The notes under the pieces: model-generated
Told to the model about the DNA's origin: nothing
Databases searched by the model: none
The model's input: the letters and a program-made list of their open reading frames with translations, nothing else
Program-made: the position numbers and the translations under genes
Part shown: one piece after another, positions 41,633-58,782 of the stretch
How positions within the stretch are numbered: the first letter of the stretch is position 1
How the letters are laid out: each line of letters begins with the position of its first letter
Source: Thermodesulfobium sp. 4217-1
GTDB lineage: Bacteria > Thermodesulfobiota > Thermodesulfobiia > Thermodesulfobiales > Thermodesulfobiaceae
Assembly (NCBI RefSeq): GCF_039822205.1
Contig: NZ_JBAGBW010000008.1
Coordinates: 11,034 to 75,033 of the forward strand
DNA: 64,000 nucleotides
Direction: 5' to 3'

Positions 41633-41773
41633 ATTTGAATTTGATAAAAGATATATAATGTAAGTTCATGCATTAATTATATATTAAAATGGTTTCTATA
41701 ATAAATTTTATAATTATTATTTTTTTCTTTGTATAATTGATAGATAAAGATTATTCTCAGAGGAGGTGAAAAA

Positions 41774-42838
41774 GTGAACAGTTTCCCAAAGCTTACTTCT
41801 TTAGTTCGTTGTGCTGGCTGAGCAGCAAAACTCAATCCAAAGGACCTAGGTGAGGTCTTAAAAGATTTACCAAAATTTGAGCATCCTGGACTAATTTTTA
41901 GCTCTGATGGCCTTGATGACGCAGGAGCTTTTGTGATAAAAGATGATTTAGCCATTGTTCAATCTGTTGACTTTTTCCCTCCTGTAGTAAACAGCCCCGA
42001 CTTATACGGGAAGATTGCCGCTGCTAATTCTCTCTCGGATTTATATGCCGTTGGAGCAAAGCCGATAACTGCATTAAATATCCTCGGATTTCCAAGATAT
42101 GATATTGAACTCGATGTGATAAACGAAATACTTAGAGGCTCTCACGAAAAAGTTAAAGAAGCCGGTGCATTGATTCTTGGTGGGCACACTGTCGACGATT
42201 TAGAATTAAAATATGGACTTAGTGTTACTGGAATTGCAAAAAAGGATGAGCTGATTGCCCACAACAGAGCACAGCCAGGCGATATAATCATCCTTACAAA
42301 ACCGCTTGGTACAGGAATACTCACTTCTGCCTTAAAAATTGACCTGATAGATGAAGAGGATATGAAAGACGCTCTTCAATCTATGCAAGAGCTAAATTAT
42401 TTTGCTGGTGAAGCACAAAAAAGGTTTAAAGCAACTTCTGGCACAGATATAACAGGTTTTGGCCTGGTCGGACACGCAGCAAATATAGCAAGATCCAGCA
42501 AAGTCGTATTTGAGATATTTTCTAAATCACTACCTATATTTGAAGGAGTTTTAAACCTTGCAAACGATAGCGTGCTCCCTGCTGGGATATTCGCAAATAT
42601 TGATTTTTATAAAGAAAATGTCGTTGAAATAGGCAAAATTGATGAAAATTATAAATACGTCATTTATGATCCACAGACCTCAGGTGGGCTTCTTTCTACT
42701 TACAATCCAGATGTCGTAGACGATGTATTAAAATTTCTTAAAGACAATGGAGTTGATGGATACATTATAGGCAGTGTAAAAAAAGGAGCTGCATTTAGTT
42801 CTGGCACAATCGTTTTTAAAGAAGGATCATTTAGATGA
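41774..42838 (+). CDS. selD: Selenide, water dikinase (selenophosphate synthase), a selenoprotein
   Basis: SelD makes selenophosphate for selenocysteine and selenouridine. The frame from GTG 41774 (ribosome binding site AGGAGGTG) is interrupted by an in-frame TGA at 41819-41821. Reading through gives SLVRCAG-U-AAKLNPKDLG, exactly the SelD active-site motif, so Sec16 takes the place of the catalytic Cys/Sec. Downstream are FSSDGLDDAGAF, VDFFPPVV, GHTVDDLELKYGLSVTG and DPQTSGGLL. Total 354 residues. A stem-loop right after the TGA fits a bacterial SECIS element. The stop overlaps the ABC permease gene as ATGA, so the two are co-expressed. Annotation pipelines would likely start it at 41933 and lose the active site. 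Confidence 0.96.
41841..41859 (+). promoter_or_regulatory. SECIS element of selD
   Basis: AGGACCT (41841-41847) pairs with AGGTCTT (41853-41859) with one G-U pair, leaving the loop AGGTG. The loop lies 27 bases after the UGA and has G in its second position, matching the known spacing and loop preference of bacterial SECIS hairpins recognised by SelB. Confidence 0.7.
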
Positions 42839-43971
42839 GCGCATCGCTTCAAAGAATATGGGCTGTATTCATTAAAGAATTCATCCAATTTTTCAGAGAT
42901 AAGGTTACCTTTATAACGGCCATTGCTATCCCTTTAATACAGCTGATTTTATACGGATATGCAATAAATACAGATGTAAAACACCAGTCTACAGTAGTAT
43001 ACGATCAATCAAAATCAGTGATGTCAAGAGACATACTATACAAGTTTCAAAGCTCACAATATTTTGACATAAAGGGATTTCTAAATAGTTCAAATGCAGT
43101 CGGCAAAGCAATTGACAATGGACAAGCAAAGGTGGGAATTATTATTCCGCCAAAACTCGAATCAAACATATTGGACAACAAGTCAAGCCAGATATTGGTA
43201 ATAATTGACGCATCCGATCCTATGTCATCAAGCTCTGCCCTATCGGCATCTCAGATGATAGGCCTGATGGAAAATCAAGAGATATTAACAAACAAACTTC
43301 AACAAAACGGAATAATATTGCCCAATAAAAACCCCTTTGAAGTGGATGTTAGGGCATGGTATAACCCCGATCTACTGTCAACGTATTTTCTTGTTCCAGG
43401 TTTAATCGCTGTTTTAATAAGCTTATCGACATTGGTTTTAACAGCAATGGCGATTGTGAGAGAGAAGGAAAGAGGCACATACGAGCAGCTTATAGTTACC
43501 CCGCTTAGGCCAATTGAGCTGACCATCGGGAAGGTTATGCCTTATGCAATTATAGGATATGCTCAAATGTCTCTTGTTATAATAGCCGCAGTGGCGCTAT
43601 TTAATCTCAACATTAAGGGGAATTTATTTTTATTGTACATTTTCGCACTACCCTTTATACTTGCCAATTTAAGCCTTGGATACATAATTTCTACTCTTGC
43701 AAAAAACCAACAGCAAGCTCTCCAAATGTCATTCTTTCTTATGGTGCCCATCTTCTTGCTGAGCGGCTTTATGTTCCCAAGAGAGGCTATGCCTGGCATA
43801 ATATATTATTTAAGCTATATCGCACCAGCCACATTCTTCCTGGTGGTAGTACGAGGCATCATCTTAAAAGGTTTAGGCTTTTTCGAGCTTTGGCAATGGG
43901 AAGTCGGATTGATAATATATATTATAATTGCTTTAAATATATCAAGGTTCTTGCTTAAAAGAAAGTCATAA
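42835..43971 (+). CDS. ABC-2 type exporter permease
   Basis: 378 residues: an N-terminal helix (about 27-45), a large extracytoplasmic domain (about 48-175) and five C-terminal helices, as in YhhJ/YbhS permeases. Typical segments are KEFIQFFRDKVTFITAIAIP at the start and VREKERGTYEQLIVTPLRP before the last helices. It probably works with the HlyD protein and the two ATPases upstream. It is translationally coupled to selD. No second permease is nearby, so it would act as a homodimer. Confidence 0.9.
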   Translation: MSASLQRIWAVFIKEFIQFFRDKVTFITAIAIPLIQLILYGYAINTDVKHQSTVVYDQSKSVMSRDILYKFQSSQYFDIKGFLNSSNAVGKAIDNGQAKVGIIIPPKLESNILDNKSSQILVIIDASDPMSSSSALSASQMIGLMENQEILTNKLQQNGIILPNKNPFEVDVRAWYNPDLLSTYFLVPGLIAVLISLSTLVLTAMAIVREKERGTYEQLIVTPLRPIELTIGKVMPYAIIGYAQMSLVIIAAVALFNLNIKGNLFLLYIFALPFILANLSLGYIISTLAKNQQQALQMSFFLMVPIFLLSGFMFPREAMPGIIYYLSYIAPATFFLVVVRGIILKGLGFFELWQWEVGLIIYIIIALNISRFLLKRKS

Positions 43972-54033: not shown

Positions 54034-54131
54034 GTGTATAATTATATCAAACAAAATTATTAAAGGACTCCCTATTAGAGAGCCAAAGTATATAATATTT
54101 TTATATACACTTATTAGAATTGGAGAAAAAA

Positions 54132-54782
54132 ATGAAAATAATACATATTTTTTCAGGTGGCTTAGACTCTACTACCCTTTTATATTATCTATTAGACAAG
54201 GGACACAATGTTAAAACAATAAGCTTTTTCTACGGTCAAAAACACAAAAAAGAGCTGAAATGTGCGCAAAATATTTCTAATATATTAAATATAGAAAATA
54301 AATTGATTGATTTGGGATCTTTAAAGACAGTTTTTGGAGACAGTTCTTTAACGAGCGACTTAGATATACCTGAAGGAAGCTACGACGATTCCAATATGAG
54401 ATCTACTGTAGTGCCAAATAGAAATATGATATTTTTGTCTATCGCAATCTCGTATGCAATATCCTCAAATTTTGAAGCAGTGTCATTGGGAGCTCACGCA
54501 GGCGATCACGCAATATATCCAGACTGCCGATCTATATTTATAAAAAAAATGAACGACGTCGCAAAGGTATGTGATTATAAAAAAATCTCAATATGTGCGC
54601 CTTTTTTAGACCTTAAAAAGCACGAAATAGTAAAAATAGGGCTAAAATTAAAAGTTCCCTATGAGTTGACATGGACATGCTATAAGGGAGGAAAAAGACC
54701 CTGCTTGAAGTGTGGTTCATGCTCAGAAAGATTGGAGGCATTCGAAAAAAACAATGTAAAAGATCCTCTAATCTTTATTTAG
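54132..54782 (+). CDS. queC: 7-cyano-7-deazaguanine synthase
   Basis: QueC converts carboxydeazaguanine to preQ0 in queuosine synthesis. The PP-loop FSGGLDSTTLLYYL, the SFFYGQKHKKEL motif, VPNRNMIFLSIA and the C-terminal zinc cysteines in CYKGGKRPCLKCGSCSER are all present. At 216 residues it is standard. The start is ATG 54132 after TTGGAG; TTG 54120 is less likely. No other queuosine genes are adjacent. It overlaps the convergent selenoprotein gene by 15 bases. Confidence 0.96.
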   Translation: MKIIHIFSGGLDSTTLLYYLLDKGHNVKTISFFYGQKHKKELKCAQNISNILNIENKLIDLGSLKTVFGDSSLTSDLDIPEGSYDDSNMRSTVVPNRNMIFLSIAISYAISSNFEAVSLGAHAGDHAIYPDCRSIFIKKMNDVAKVCDYKKISICAPFLDLKKHEIVKIGLKLKVPYELTWTCYKGGKRPCLKCGSCSERLEAFEKNNVKDPLIFI

Positions 54783-54986
54783 ACTCTTTTTTGCCTCTTC
54801 CACTACACGGTGGACATCAGCTAAACATCAAGTCCCCTTTGGGTTGTTTAGATGGCAAGCACATTGACCGTCTTTCTTTTTGCTTACTATGAATTGTTGA
54901 ATCTTAGAAACGCCATTGTGCGATATTACATCTTCTTTAATCTCATCATCAGTAAAACCAAAGCAATAACAAATAGTTTGACTCAT
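54768..54986 (-). CDS. BFD/CopZ-like [2Fe-2S] selenoprotein (in-frame UGA)
   Basis: Translating from ATG 54986 (GGTGA before it) gives MSQTICYCFGFTDDEIKEDV, then GQCACHLNNPKGT, a TGA at 54830-54828, and CLADVHRVVEEAKKSL to a TAG. BFD-like/CopZ N-terminal domains have C-x-C...C-x-C-x-x-x-N-P-x-G-x-C-C-L-G-D-V. Here the first Cys of the CC pair is the TGA, so Sec53 replaces a conserved cysteine, and the family sequence continues after it. With read-through the protein has 72 residues, normal for the family. selD is present and a SECIS-like hairpin follows. Role unknown: electron transfer or metal/selenium handling. Confidence 0.88.
54799..54814 (-). promoter_or_regulatory. SECIS-like hairpin of the BFD-like selenoprotein
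   Basis: On the minus strand TCCAC (54814-54810) pairs with GTGGA (54803-54799) around the loop CGTGTA. The loop starts 19 bases after the UGA and has G in second position, within the usual limits for bacterial SECIS elements. The stem is only 5 bp, so confidence is moderate. Confidence 0.55.
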
Positions 54987-55065
54987 AGTTCACCACTTTT
55001 CTAAAATATTATTATTTTTATTATAATATAAATATAATTATAAATAAATAAAGGAGGTGTTGTCC

Positions 55066-55182
55066 GTGATTATAAGATGATTTTGAAATAAAGCCACTGA
55101 TAGATACGTAGTTTACGTATCAAAAAACTCTAAATCAAAGGAGAAATGTTATGGACAACACCGAAATGTACCAATCACTTGA
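55066..55182 (+). other. Possible mini-frame with two in-frame UGA codons before hgdB
   Basis: An AAAGGAGGTG ribosome binding site, much stronger than usual here, precedes GTG 55066. The frame reads MIIR, UGA, F, UGA, then NKATDRYVVYVSKNSKSKEK to a third TGA at 55180, 38 codons in all, running into the hgdB start. A perfect 8-bp hairpin GATACGTA-GTT-TACGTATC (55103-55121) lies 24 bases after the second UGA, as for a SECIS. It could be a tiny selenopeptide, or a four-codon leader peptide with an attenuating hairpin. I recognise no homologue. Confidence 0.35.
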
Positions 55183-56413
55183 CATAGATCTAAAGGCTCA
55201 CGACACCCTAATGGGAGCTCTTCCAGTATTATTTCAAGAATGTTTTCTAAACAAGGAACAAGATCTGAAAGGTCTTTCATACTTTTATTCAGTGGTTGCA
55301 GACATACACGGAGCAAGAGTAAAAGAACTAATAGAGCACAAAAATAAGGGCCCAGTCATTGGATCATTTTGCATTTACGTGCCAGAAGAAATAGTTTTAG
55401 CAGCATGTGGTCAATTGGTAGGACTTTGTGCAGGAGCTGACTTTTGGGTTCCATACGGTGAACAGATAGTGCCAAAAAATCTGTGCCCATTGATAAAAGC
55501 GGGTATTGGAGCAAAATATTCAAGAACCTGTCCATATTTTCAGGTAGTAGATTTGTTAATAGGAGAAAATACCTGTGATGGCAAGAAGAAGGCATGGGAA
55601 ATATTTTCTGATATGGTTGATATGTACATTATGGATATGCCAAACAAAAAAAGCGATGCTGGGTTAAAGCTTTGGCAAGAGGAAGTATGGAATTTATGCA
55701 GTTTTCTTGAAAAAAAATTTAGCAAATCTATTAATTTTGATTCCCTTCTAAACGGTATCCAAAAGGTAAACGCAAAAAGAAACGCACTGAAAAGGCTCTA
55801 TAACACAAGGAAGCTCTCCCCTTCTCCAATATCAGGAATAGACGCCCTATTGGTTACTCAAATAGGCTTTTATGATGATATAGAAAGATACACAAAGATG
55901 GTAGAAGCATTAGCCCAAGAATGCGAAGAGAAGGCATCATCAAATTCGCAAAACAAGAACAAAAAAAGAATATTGGTTACCGGTTCGCCAATGGTAGTGC
56001 CCAACTGGAAGATTCATCACGTAATAGAAACAAGCGGCGCTGATGTGGTAGTTGAGGAAAATTGCACTGGCACAAGATATTTCAAGGACAACGTTTCGAT
56101 AGAAAATGCATCAAGCAAGGGAGATTTGCTCAAGAACATATCAGATAGGTACATAAATAACATAAATTGTGCGTGTTTCTCACCAAATAAAGGCAGAGAG
56201 GAAGACATATTAAGCCTTTGCAAGGATTATAGAGTTGACGGTATTGTGTATGCCTCCCTTAGCTTCTGTACTACATATATGATTGAGGCAGAAAAAATAA
56301 GAAAGACAGCAAAAGAAAATAATATACCTATGATTACAGTAGAGTCAGATTATTCGTTTGGAGACCTTGGGCAACTTAGAACAAGAATAGAGGCTTTTGT
56401 AGAAAACCTATGA
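55151..56413 (+). CDS. HgdB-type 2-hydroxyacyl-CoA dehydratase family protein, double-cubane-cluster type
   Basis: 420 residues of the HgdB/BcrBC family. Iron-sulfur Cys positions include GPVIGSFCIYVPEEIVLAAC, SRTCPYF and, in the C-terminal half, ASLSFCTTYMIEAEK. The C-terminal lobe has VTGSPMVVPNWK and SDYSFGDLGQLRTRIEAF. As a single subunit with one activase it corresponds to double-cubane cluster proteins (YjiM-like), which do ATP-driven low-potential reductions of small molecules, rather than the two-subunit dehydratases. The ribosome binding site is AAAGGAG. It is coupled to the activase gene (ATGA). Confidence 0.85.
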   Translation: MDNTEMYQSLDIDLKAHDTLMGALPVLFQECFLNKEQDLKGLSYFYSVVADIHGARVKELIEHKNKGPVIGSFCIYVPEEIVLAACGQLVGLCAGADFWVPYGEQIVPKNLCPLIKAGIGAKYSRTCPYFQVVDLLIGENTCDGKKKAWEIFSDMVDMYIMDMPNKKSDAGLKLWQEEVWNLCSFLEKKFSKSINFDSLLNGIQKVNAKRNALKRLYNTRKLSPSPISGIDALLVTQIGFYDDIERYTKMVEALAQECEEKASSNSQNKNKKRILVTGSPMVVPNWKIHHVIETSGADVVVEENCTGTRYFKDNVSIENASSKGDLLKNISDRYINNINCACFSPNKGREEDILSLCKDYRVDGIVYASLSFCTTYMIEAEKIRKTAKENNIPMITVESDYSFGDLGQLRTRIEAFVENL

Positions 56414-57159
56414 GTATACTCGGTTTGGATATAGGCTCAAGAAGTATAAAATGGGTTCTTTATGACAAAGGTTCAAATTCTATCTTAGAAAAGGGGATAT
56501 TAGATAGCACCCCTGCCAATCTTGAAAGGATAGAGGGTATCATCCCCCCTTTCGATCAAATTGGTCTTACCGGTTATGGCAGGCATAATTTAAATAACGT
56601 CCTAAAAGTAAAATCCCCAAAGATAGTCTCAGAGATAACTTGCCACGCTAAGGGAGCAAGATACATAGAACCAGAAAGTTATTATCTCTTAGATATCGGC
56701 GGACAGGACACAAAATTTATAATGGTAGATAAGTCTGGAAAAATTATAGATTTTAAATTAAACGACAGGTGTTCGGCTGGAACAGGCAGATATATTGAAA
56801 ATATGGCAAAAATATTAGATGTAAAAATCCAAGACTTTATAGACATGGCCGTTAGATCAGAAAAGCCATCCAATATAAACTCGATGTGTACTGTTTTTGC
56901 AGAAAGCGAAATAATAAGCTTGATTCATTCCAGGGAACAGATAGAAGACATTGCTGCGGGAGTGATAAAATCTCTAATATTCAGAACAAAAGCTTTGATT
57001 GGAACAAATAAGACAGACGAAAGCATATTGCTTTTAGGGGGGCTCTCAGAATTGCAGAATATAGAAATTTTATTCGAAAGATTTGATTTAAAAATCAAAA
57101 AAAAATCACTCTCAAGATACACGGGTGCCCTGGGAGCAGCACTGATTTTAGTCGACTAA
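56410..57159 (+). CDS. HgdC/YjiL-type acyl-CoA dehydratase activase
   Basis: An ASKHA-fold ATPase that donates electrons to its partner. It has GLDIGSRSIKWVLYD (phosphate 1), DIGGQDTKFIMVD (phosphate 2), and the two Cys that bridge a [4Fe-4S] cluster across the dimer, Cys121 in NDRCSAGTGRY and Cys160 in INSMCTVFAESEI. LLLGGLSELQNIE is the adenosine motif. At 249 residues it has the standard length. It serves the HgdB-like protein encoded just upstream. Confidence 0.94.
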   Translation: MSILGLDIGSRSIKWVLYDKGSNSILEKGILDSTPANLERIEGIIPPFDQIGLTGYGRHNLNNVLKVKSPKIVSEITCHAKGARYIEPESYYLLDIGGQDTKFIMVDKSGKIIDFKLNDRCSAGTGRYIENMAKILDVKIQDFIDMAVRSEKPSNINSMCTVFAESEIISLIHSREQIEDIAAGVIKSLIFRTKALIGTNKTDESILLLGGLSELQNIEILFERFDLKIKKKSLSRYTGALGAALILVD

Positions 57160-57245: not shown

Positions 57246-57542
57246 ATGCAAAGAACTGGTTTTCCATCTCCTGCAAGAAATTACGAAAAGCTTGATTTAG
57301 ATTTAAACAGGTTGATAGTGGATAGCCCATCTTCAACCTTTTTCTTTAAGACAAAAAAGGATTATAAAGACCTGGATCTAAAAAGTGGCGACATCATAGT
57401 GGTCGACAGATCAAAACAGCCAAAGAGCTCGATGTTATCGGTTGTTTTATTGGATGGGCACCTTGCAATAAAGGATAGCTCTGACCTAAAGCCAGAAATA
57501 GAAATATTCGGCAAGATTACCTATGTCATTAGAAAACTTTGA
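57246..57542 (+). CDS. UmuD'-like protein lacking the protease serine
   Basis: 98 residues that begin [20 protein letters not shown]. In UmuD the self-cleavage site is C24-G25 followed by FPSPA, so this gene starts almost exactly where mature UmuD' starts. With that offset of 20, the UmuD nucleophile Ser60 corresponds to Tyr40 here ([11 protein letters not shown] against YFVKASGDSMID); the general-base Lys is kept (Lys76 in LAIK). Autocleavage is thus neither needed nor possible. It is coupled to umuC (20-base overlap) and likely forms the polymerase V accessory subunit without RecA-dependent activation. Confidence 0.85.
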
Positions 57543-58782
57543 AAGTTTTTTCGCGCTAATAGATTGCAACAACTTTTACGTGTCTTGCGAAAGATTGTTT
57601 AATCCAAGTCTACTAAACAAACCTGTCGTGGTATTGTCAAACAATGACGGTTGTATAATCGCAAGATCCAATGAAGCAAAGGCATTAGGAGTAAAAATGG
57701 GCGCTCCATACTTTCAAATAAGGGGTTATTTAGAAAGAAACGGGGCTGTGGTTATTTCATCAAATTATGAAATATATGAAGACATATCAAAAAGGTTTAT
57801 AAACATAATAAGATCCAAAATATGTTTCGTAGAAGCATACTCAATAGATGAGGCATTCATAGAATTAAAGGGGATATTGAAAAAGAAAAGATTTGAATTT
57901 TGCAAAGAGCTAAAAGATGAAATATATCGTCTTATAGGCATACCTGTCTCGATAGGCATAGGGAGAACAAAAACCCTTGCAAAGGTTGCAAACAAGATAG
58001 CCAAAAGACACAAAGACCTAAATGGCGTATTTGATATAACTGACAATGAAGAGGGGGCCTTAAGAAACTTTGAAGCAAAAGACATTTGGGGGATTGGCAA
58101 GAGCAAGGCTAATTACTTGAAAAGCATAGGCATACAGAATGCCTTAGAATTATCAATGATAGACGACTCATTTGCCAAAAAATCTCTTAGCATAAAGGGG
58201 TTGGCTACAGTACTCGAGCTGAGGGGGATAAAGTGTATAAAGCTACAAGAAGAAAGACCCAAACAAAAAGAAATAATAGTATCAAGATCTTTTGGAACCG
58301 ATGTTGATAACTTCAAAAGCTTAAGAGAGAGCGTGTCTTACTTTGCGATTACTGCTGTAAATAATATGAGAAGCTTAGATTTATATGCCAAAACTCTATT
58401 TGTTTTTATAACGTCAAGCCCATTCAAAGAGAATTTTTGCTCTTATCAAAAAGAAGTTAACTTCGATTTCTATACGCAGGATGTATTTCTTATATTAAAT
58501 GCGGCCGAAGACTGCCTAAATGATATATTTAAATGCAACGTAAATTACAAAAAAGCGGGAGTTATATTAAAAAACCTATCGACAAGACAGGCCGCATTGG
58601 GAAATTTATTTACAAGTTTAGAAGACGAAAATAAATACAATCTTATGAGGTCTATCGATCTGCTGAACAAGAAAATAAAGAAAGACGCAGTTTTCTTCGC
58701 AGTTGAAGGAGTAGATAAAATTTGGCAAGCAAGAAGGGATCACAAAATAGCTAACCTAGCAAGTGAAATAGACATTATTTAA
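57523..58782 (+). CDS. umuC: DNA polymerase V catalytic subunit UmuC
   Basis: Y-family translesion polymerase. Catalytic acidic residues are in [17 protein letters not shown] and [48 protein letters not shown] and [15 protein letters not shown] (helix-hairpin-helix) are typical. At 419 residues it is full length. It is co-expressed with the UmuD'-like protein. Mutagenic repair would be controlled mainly at transcription here. Confidence 0.95.

Follow-up and report, generated by a model that had tools for sequence, protein, structure and literature searches.

A stretch of DNA of 64,000 nucleotides, here called the window, contains a small gene of 72 codons on its minus strand (54768-54986) that is interrupted by one in-frame UGA. 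We conclude from sequence comparison that this gene encodes a real selenoprotein, a stand-alone BFD/CopZ-like domain of the [2Fe-2S] type with selenocysteine (Sec) at position 53; the insertion of Sec itself we infer. In other genomes a substantial fraction of the genes with the same UGA-Cys (UC) arrangement lies near arsenic resistance (ars) genes. On balance, we lean toward the view that the product is a redox selenoprotein with a Bfd fold and a [2Fe-2S] cluster, that it handles soft metals or metalloids, and that the lineage of the window acquired it horizontally.

The UGA-containing frame and its hairpin

The gene extends from an ATG at 54984-54986 to a TAG at 54768-54770 (minus strand), and its translation, with U for Sec, is MSQTICYCFGFTDDEIKEDVISHNGVSKIQQFIVSKKKDGQCACHLNNPKGTUCLADVHRVVEEAKKSLNKD. 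The only TGA in the frame is codon 53 (54828-54830, minus strand), which lies at the first Cys of the "GxCC" motif of CopZ/BFD proteins. Codon 54 (54825-54827, minus strand) is TGT and encodes Cys54, the second residue of the UC pair. Using a profile made from Cys-containing homologues only, the frame scored 75.4 bits (E 1.2e-22). The runner-up frame in the window scored 7.9 bits, and no window that had been reversed or shuffled scored above 11.2 bits. The frame that an earlier note had picked out from the sequence alone, BFD/CopZ-like with one UGA, is thereby confirmed. Reading through the UGA raised the score from 53.0 to 76.3 bits, and this gain of 23 bits comes from the tail. An ordinary gene caller would miss the gene, as that note had expected, because no minus-strand frame of at least 60 codons is listed at 54768-54986 under the standard code. 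The ribosome binding site it had reported is present but weak, with GGTG 4 nt from the ATG. The RBS-like sequence GTGGTG (54991-54996, minus strand) is kept across the genus in a DNA alignment.

The UGA could in principle be a true stop that leaves a 52-residue peptide, a decayed gene, or a sequencing error. UGA does serve as a normal stop in these genomes; the selD frame, for example, ends in TGA. The conservation of the UGA and of the tail contradicts this reading. The TGA and the coding sequence downstream of it are kept in 4/4 genomes of the window's genus, hardly any amino acid change separates them between codon 53 and roughly codon 65, and GTCCACCGTGTAGTGGA is invariant in all four when codon changes are followed in the DNA alignment. 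A small gene of the same kind, its single TGA in the corresponding position, was found in 56/395 genomes of one other phylum (E 2e-13 or better). The UGA aligns with Cys in homologues, so the proposed replacement of a conserved Cys by Sec holds up, and coding is conserved beyond it in the genus and in dozens of genomes elsewhere. The earlier note had raised the prospect of relatives that end at the UGA. The opposite was found, in favor of Sec; the tail is preserved in relatives, and in many of them so is the UGA. Given this conservation, the 23 bits contributed by the tail, and the hairpin covariation described below, a true stop or a sequencing error is scarcely credible and was rejected.

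The machinery for Sec insertion was then considered. The genes selA and selB, tRNA-Sec, and a UGA-containing selD were all found in 4/4 genomes of the genus. The window itself encodes a Sec-type SelD (41744-42913, plus strand), as had been noticed earlier, which does not share an operon with the Sec gene. Its in-frame TGA, near 41819-41821, is conserved in the four genomes. Among the 56 genomes of the other phylum, 50 have tRNA-Sec and the other 6 have SelB. This co-occurrence is statistically uninformative because tRNA-Sec is present in 344/395 genomes of that phylum.

A SECIS-like hairpin follows the UGA at 54799-54814 (minus strand), in agreement with the earlier note. It has a 5-bp stem, UCCAC/GUGGA, and a loop, CGUGUA, which begins 18 nt past the UGA. 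In an alignment of 30 relatives the five stem pairs are paired in 99.3% of cells, compared with 96.9% for shuffles (0/500 as high) and at most 68.7% for slid positions. The stem covaries. Pair 20/29 is GU, AU or GC and never AC, and at pair 18/31 CG predominates, three relatives having UA and two UG. The core of the loop reads AGGU, GGGU or GUGU in 30/31 sequences, which is of the bacterial SECIS type with a G in the apical loop. The hairpin positions also code, so part of their constraint is protein constraint; the paired changes join different codons. Sequences folded singly give weak signals, with z from -1.2 to -2.0 for the genus, and L004, one of its four sequences, adopts another fold when taken by itself. 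The case for a SECIS element is one made by the alignment.

Domain, fold and relation to known families

The window protein matches several family models in part. CopZ_Nterm_CC (NF047645) gave 60.6 bits against a cut-off of 100, with only model positions 86-137 of 138 covered. The Csac_0668 model (NF045877) gave 26.8 of the 190 bits of its cut-off and covered only positions 99-159. Five other UC proteins likewise fell below both cut-offs. The Pfam model Fer2_BFD (PF04324) gave 17.5 bits over residues 4-32, below its gathering cut-off of 26. The C-terminal half of the NF047645 proteins and of A. fulgidus CopZ-NT (structure 2hu9) aligns end to end with the window protein. NF047645 and 2hu9 differ in having an additional N-terminal zinc-type domain and Cys where the window protein has Sec. 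The partial match and this alignment bear out the description of the product as a Sec-containing BFD/CopZ-like protein.

The probable cluster residues can be placed using 2hu9. Cys75, 77, 109, 118 and 119 of CopZ-NT align with C6, C8, C44, U53 and C54, and these five positions, with either Cys or Sec at 53, are invariant in 52 aligned sequences. Most likely C6, C8, C44 and one of Sec53 and Cys54 hold the [2Fe-2S] cluster, with a selenol or thiol beside it. Cys119, the equivalent of C54, is one that we take to be a cluster ligand in CopZ. A short Cys relative, L152, has C-R at the U53-C54 positions, which points against C54 as the ligand.

The AlphaFold model of the window protein has a pLDDT of 95.8. 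A plain Foldseek search of the PDB with this model produced no useful match. Alignment of the model with VIA-align gave Z 5.8 over 54 residues for Bfd (4e6k) and Z 3.4 for CopZ-NT (2hu9). Bfd (4e6k, 6e6r) is similar in size and probably in fold. The two proteins share 22% identity, however, and the C-terminal half of the window protein has the spacing C-x8-UC while that of Bfd has C-x2-C. No bacterioferritin gene is adjacent to the Sec gene in the window.

The earlier note had not recognized a standard selenoprotein family here, and on this point it has to be corrected. A 2026 review lists a "(2Fe-2S)-binding protein (copper chaperone CopZ family) form 1, cd10141, GxUC", together with a second form that carries CU, both of them computational predictions (PMC13188914). 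The listing of form 1 consists of the motif and one accession, WP_245779778.1, and we found no function given there (PMC13188914). Both forms are also listed, without motifs, in PMC9312934, and in the text consulted, the 2008 paper given as the reference for form 1 does not name CopZ. The window protein has the same domain description as form 1, with U before C and G two positions before U, and GxUC is found in the window protein and in 48/55 UC loci. With domain description and motif matching, and with form 1 already listed (PMC13188914), the window gene is very probably a member of this known kind. Membership in the Csac_0668 family, which corresponds to form 2, was considered and rejected. 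Form 2 has a related BFD/CopZ-type domain with Sec in the same Cys pair, but its Sec is second (CU), its model of 161 positions describes two domains, and the UC protein of the window scores far below the cut-off, as given above.

Distribution, origin and gene neighborhoods

The 55 UC loci encode domains of 62-82 residues, counted to the stop from a point shortly ahead of the first Cys, and in most of them a start codon lies within a few codons of the first Cys. The 80 Cys homologues, which were found by pattern, have an extra zinc-finger-like domain of ~60-100 residues in front. UGA forms are stand-alone domains, whereas nearly all Cys homologues have two domains. A few short Cys forms occur on a different branch (L151, L152 at 322-507, and L154); L152 is closer to the Csac_0668 model, with which it scores 45.8 bits. 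A broad sample of 386 genomes otherwise contained only Cys forms.

A tree was constructed from 113 domains and 66 columns, with U coded as C so that the label has no pull. All 34 UC rows group together in a single clade (99/86). Within it, the window's genus pairs with f85, a family of the other phylum (100/99), the inner branching order being uncertain at 66 columns. Since the window copy lies within the UC clade of the other phylum, the simplest reading of the tree is that the lineage of the window probably obtained the gene horizontally from this second bacterial phylum. In the f85 relative that was examined, a flavin reductase gene and an LpxD-like gene adjoin the UC gene.

The neighbors of UC genes were examined for recurring families. 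Among the first 17 loci the neighbors were mixed, and an ars signal became clear once more loci were counted. An ars-type gene lies within 5 kb of 20/55 UC loci, compared with 0/20 control stretches taken from the same set of genomes. Because loci within a family do not count as independent cases, the link was also counted by family, and about eleven families have it. A PF03773-type permease is present in 18 of the 20 ars-linked loci. It is directly upstream on the same strand in nine loci, belonging to families f135 (six), f111, f157 and f120, with 28-58 nt between the end of the permease gene and the first Cys codon; the independent linkages are fewer than nine because six come from f135. 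The permeases beside UC genes score 106-141 bits against SaoE, below the cut-off of 325. Where permease and UC gene occur together, their companions include ArsR, thioredoxin-type ArsC, a TauE-type permease, and an ArsE-family thioredoxin or ArsG. The f135 operon (L199, L181, L196, L191 and others) has the order ArsR, ArsC, ArsP/SaoE-like permease, UC selenoprotein, TauE-type permease, ArsE-like thioredoxin.

The two-domain Cys CopZ-like proteins have a mercury link in several lineages. Their genes (L008-L087) lie beside MerT, MerR, MerB, HMA or MerA-like genes.

No ars operon adjoins the Sec gene in the window. On one side is queC (54120-54782, plus strand), which is convergent and overlaps the 3' end of the Sec gene by 15 nt. 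The divergent neighbor on the other side (55151-56413, plus strand), which had been called hgdB, is a double-cubane-cluster anaerobic reductase that scores over the cut-off of NF040772 with 465 bits. It is followed by an acyl-CoA dehydratase activase gene (56410-57159, plus strand). A second genome of the genus, L160, has an HGD-D gene and an activase at the matching place. Beyond queC, the segment 51920-54054 encodes a transporter that matches ArsB/DASS weakly and lies ~1.6 kb farther on, on the other strand. Two small proteins follow on the opposite strand, and one of them weakly resembles PRK10519. A UmuD-like (below cut-off) and UmuC-like pair of the translesion polymerase type is found at 57246-58782 (plus strand).

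These neighbors raise a possible, if somewhat doubtful, alternative in which the protein is a real selenoprotein with no tie to metalloids. It would then be a general Bfd/ferredoxin-like electron carrier or a thiol/peroxide reductase, and may serve the double-cubane reductase of the window. The predicted fold, closest to Bfd, and the adjoining reductase and activase genes argue for it, as do the 35/55 UC loci that have no ars-type neighbor within 5 kb, some of these stretches being short contigs. However, the window's genus is the only one in which a gene of the HGD-D (double-cubane) type was found next to a UC gene, and no family outside the ars group recurs beside UC genes as strongly as ArsP_1.

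The earlier note had also suggested selenium transfer. More broadly, Sec could take part in the transfer of sulfur, selenium or Fe-S clusters, with the protein as a scaffold or selenium carrier. Sec beside a cluster could bind selenium or pass it on, and there are weak matches to NifU_proper (E 0.0081 for the window protein and 0.0014 for L112). The families that recur beside UC genes include no conspicuous genes for Fe-S assembly or selenium, and in the window selD is ~12 kb away on the other strand. We consider transfer improbable, and the selenium version in particular finds no support because selenium genes were not seen to recur beside UC genes.

Proposed role of the UC proteins

Our preferred reading remains a selenoprotein that couples redox chemistry to the handling of soft metals or metalloids. 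The metalloid part is drawn from the ars-type linkage of the UC loci, 20/55 against 0/20. SelB would insert Sec at the UGA of codon 53, at the hairpin downstream, and the product would be a small cytosolic Bfd-fold domain with a [2Fe-2S] cluster. The cluster would supply electrons. The Sec53-Cys54 pair may then reduce or hold a thiophilic species, either an arsenical or another soft metal, which a permease of the ArsP/SaoE type would export. Passage of electrons from cluster to metalloid is proposed by analogy with A. fulgidus CopZ, whose [2Fe-2S] domain is reported to mediate the reduction of Cu(II) (PMC7558416). Every step beyond a Bfd-like protein that contains Sec and is linked to ars genes is one that we infer, and the free-standing copy in the window may share the metalloid-handling role of the family. 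Several other selenoproteins have been implicated in mercury and arsenic resistance (PMC13188914).

A more specific proposal, which we put forward tentatively, is that the stand-alone UC protein belongs, so far unrecognized, to operons for the efflux of arsenic or organoarsenicals. As a Sec-[2Fe-2S] protein it would either reduce the metalloid or deliver it to the ArsP/SaoE-like permease. In the literature searched, which excludes the work of Haft and colleagues (2023, 2025), we found no report of a CopZ-like domain as a selenoprotein in ars operons, nor of the stand-alone architecture, the statistics on the SECIS or the linkage to ars genes that are added here.

A published prediction that consisted of a motif with no function now appears to be a real selenoprotein, widespread in one phylum, with a covarying SECIS and a tie to metalloid efflux operons. 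Its single-domain architecture stays under the cut-offs of current NCBI family models. If the proposed role is true, the UC proteins would be to Sec what the two-domain proteins with a mercury link are to Cys, acquired also by the lineage of the window. A concrete test is now possible of why bacteria place selenocysteine beside an iron-sulfur cluster.
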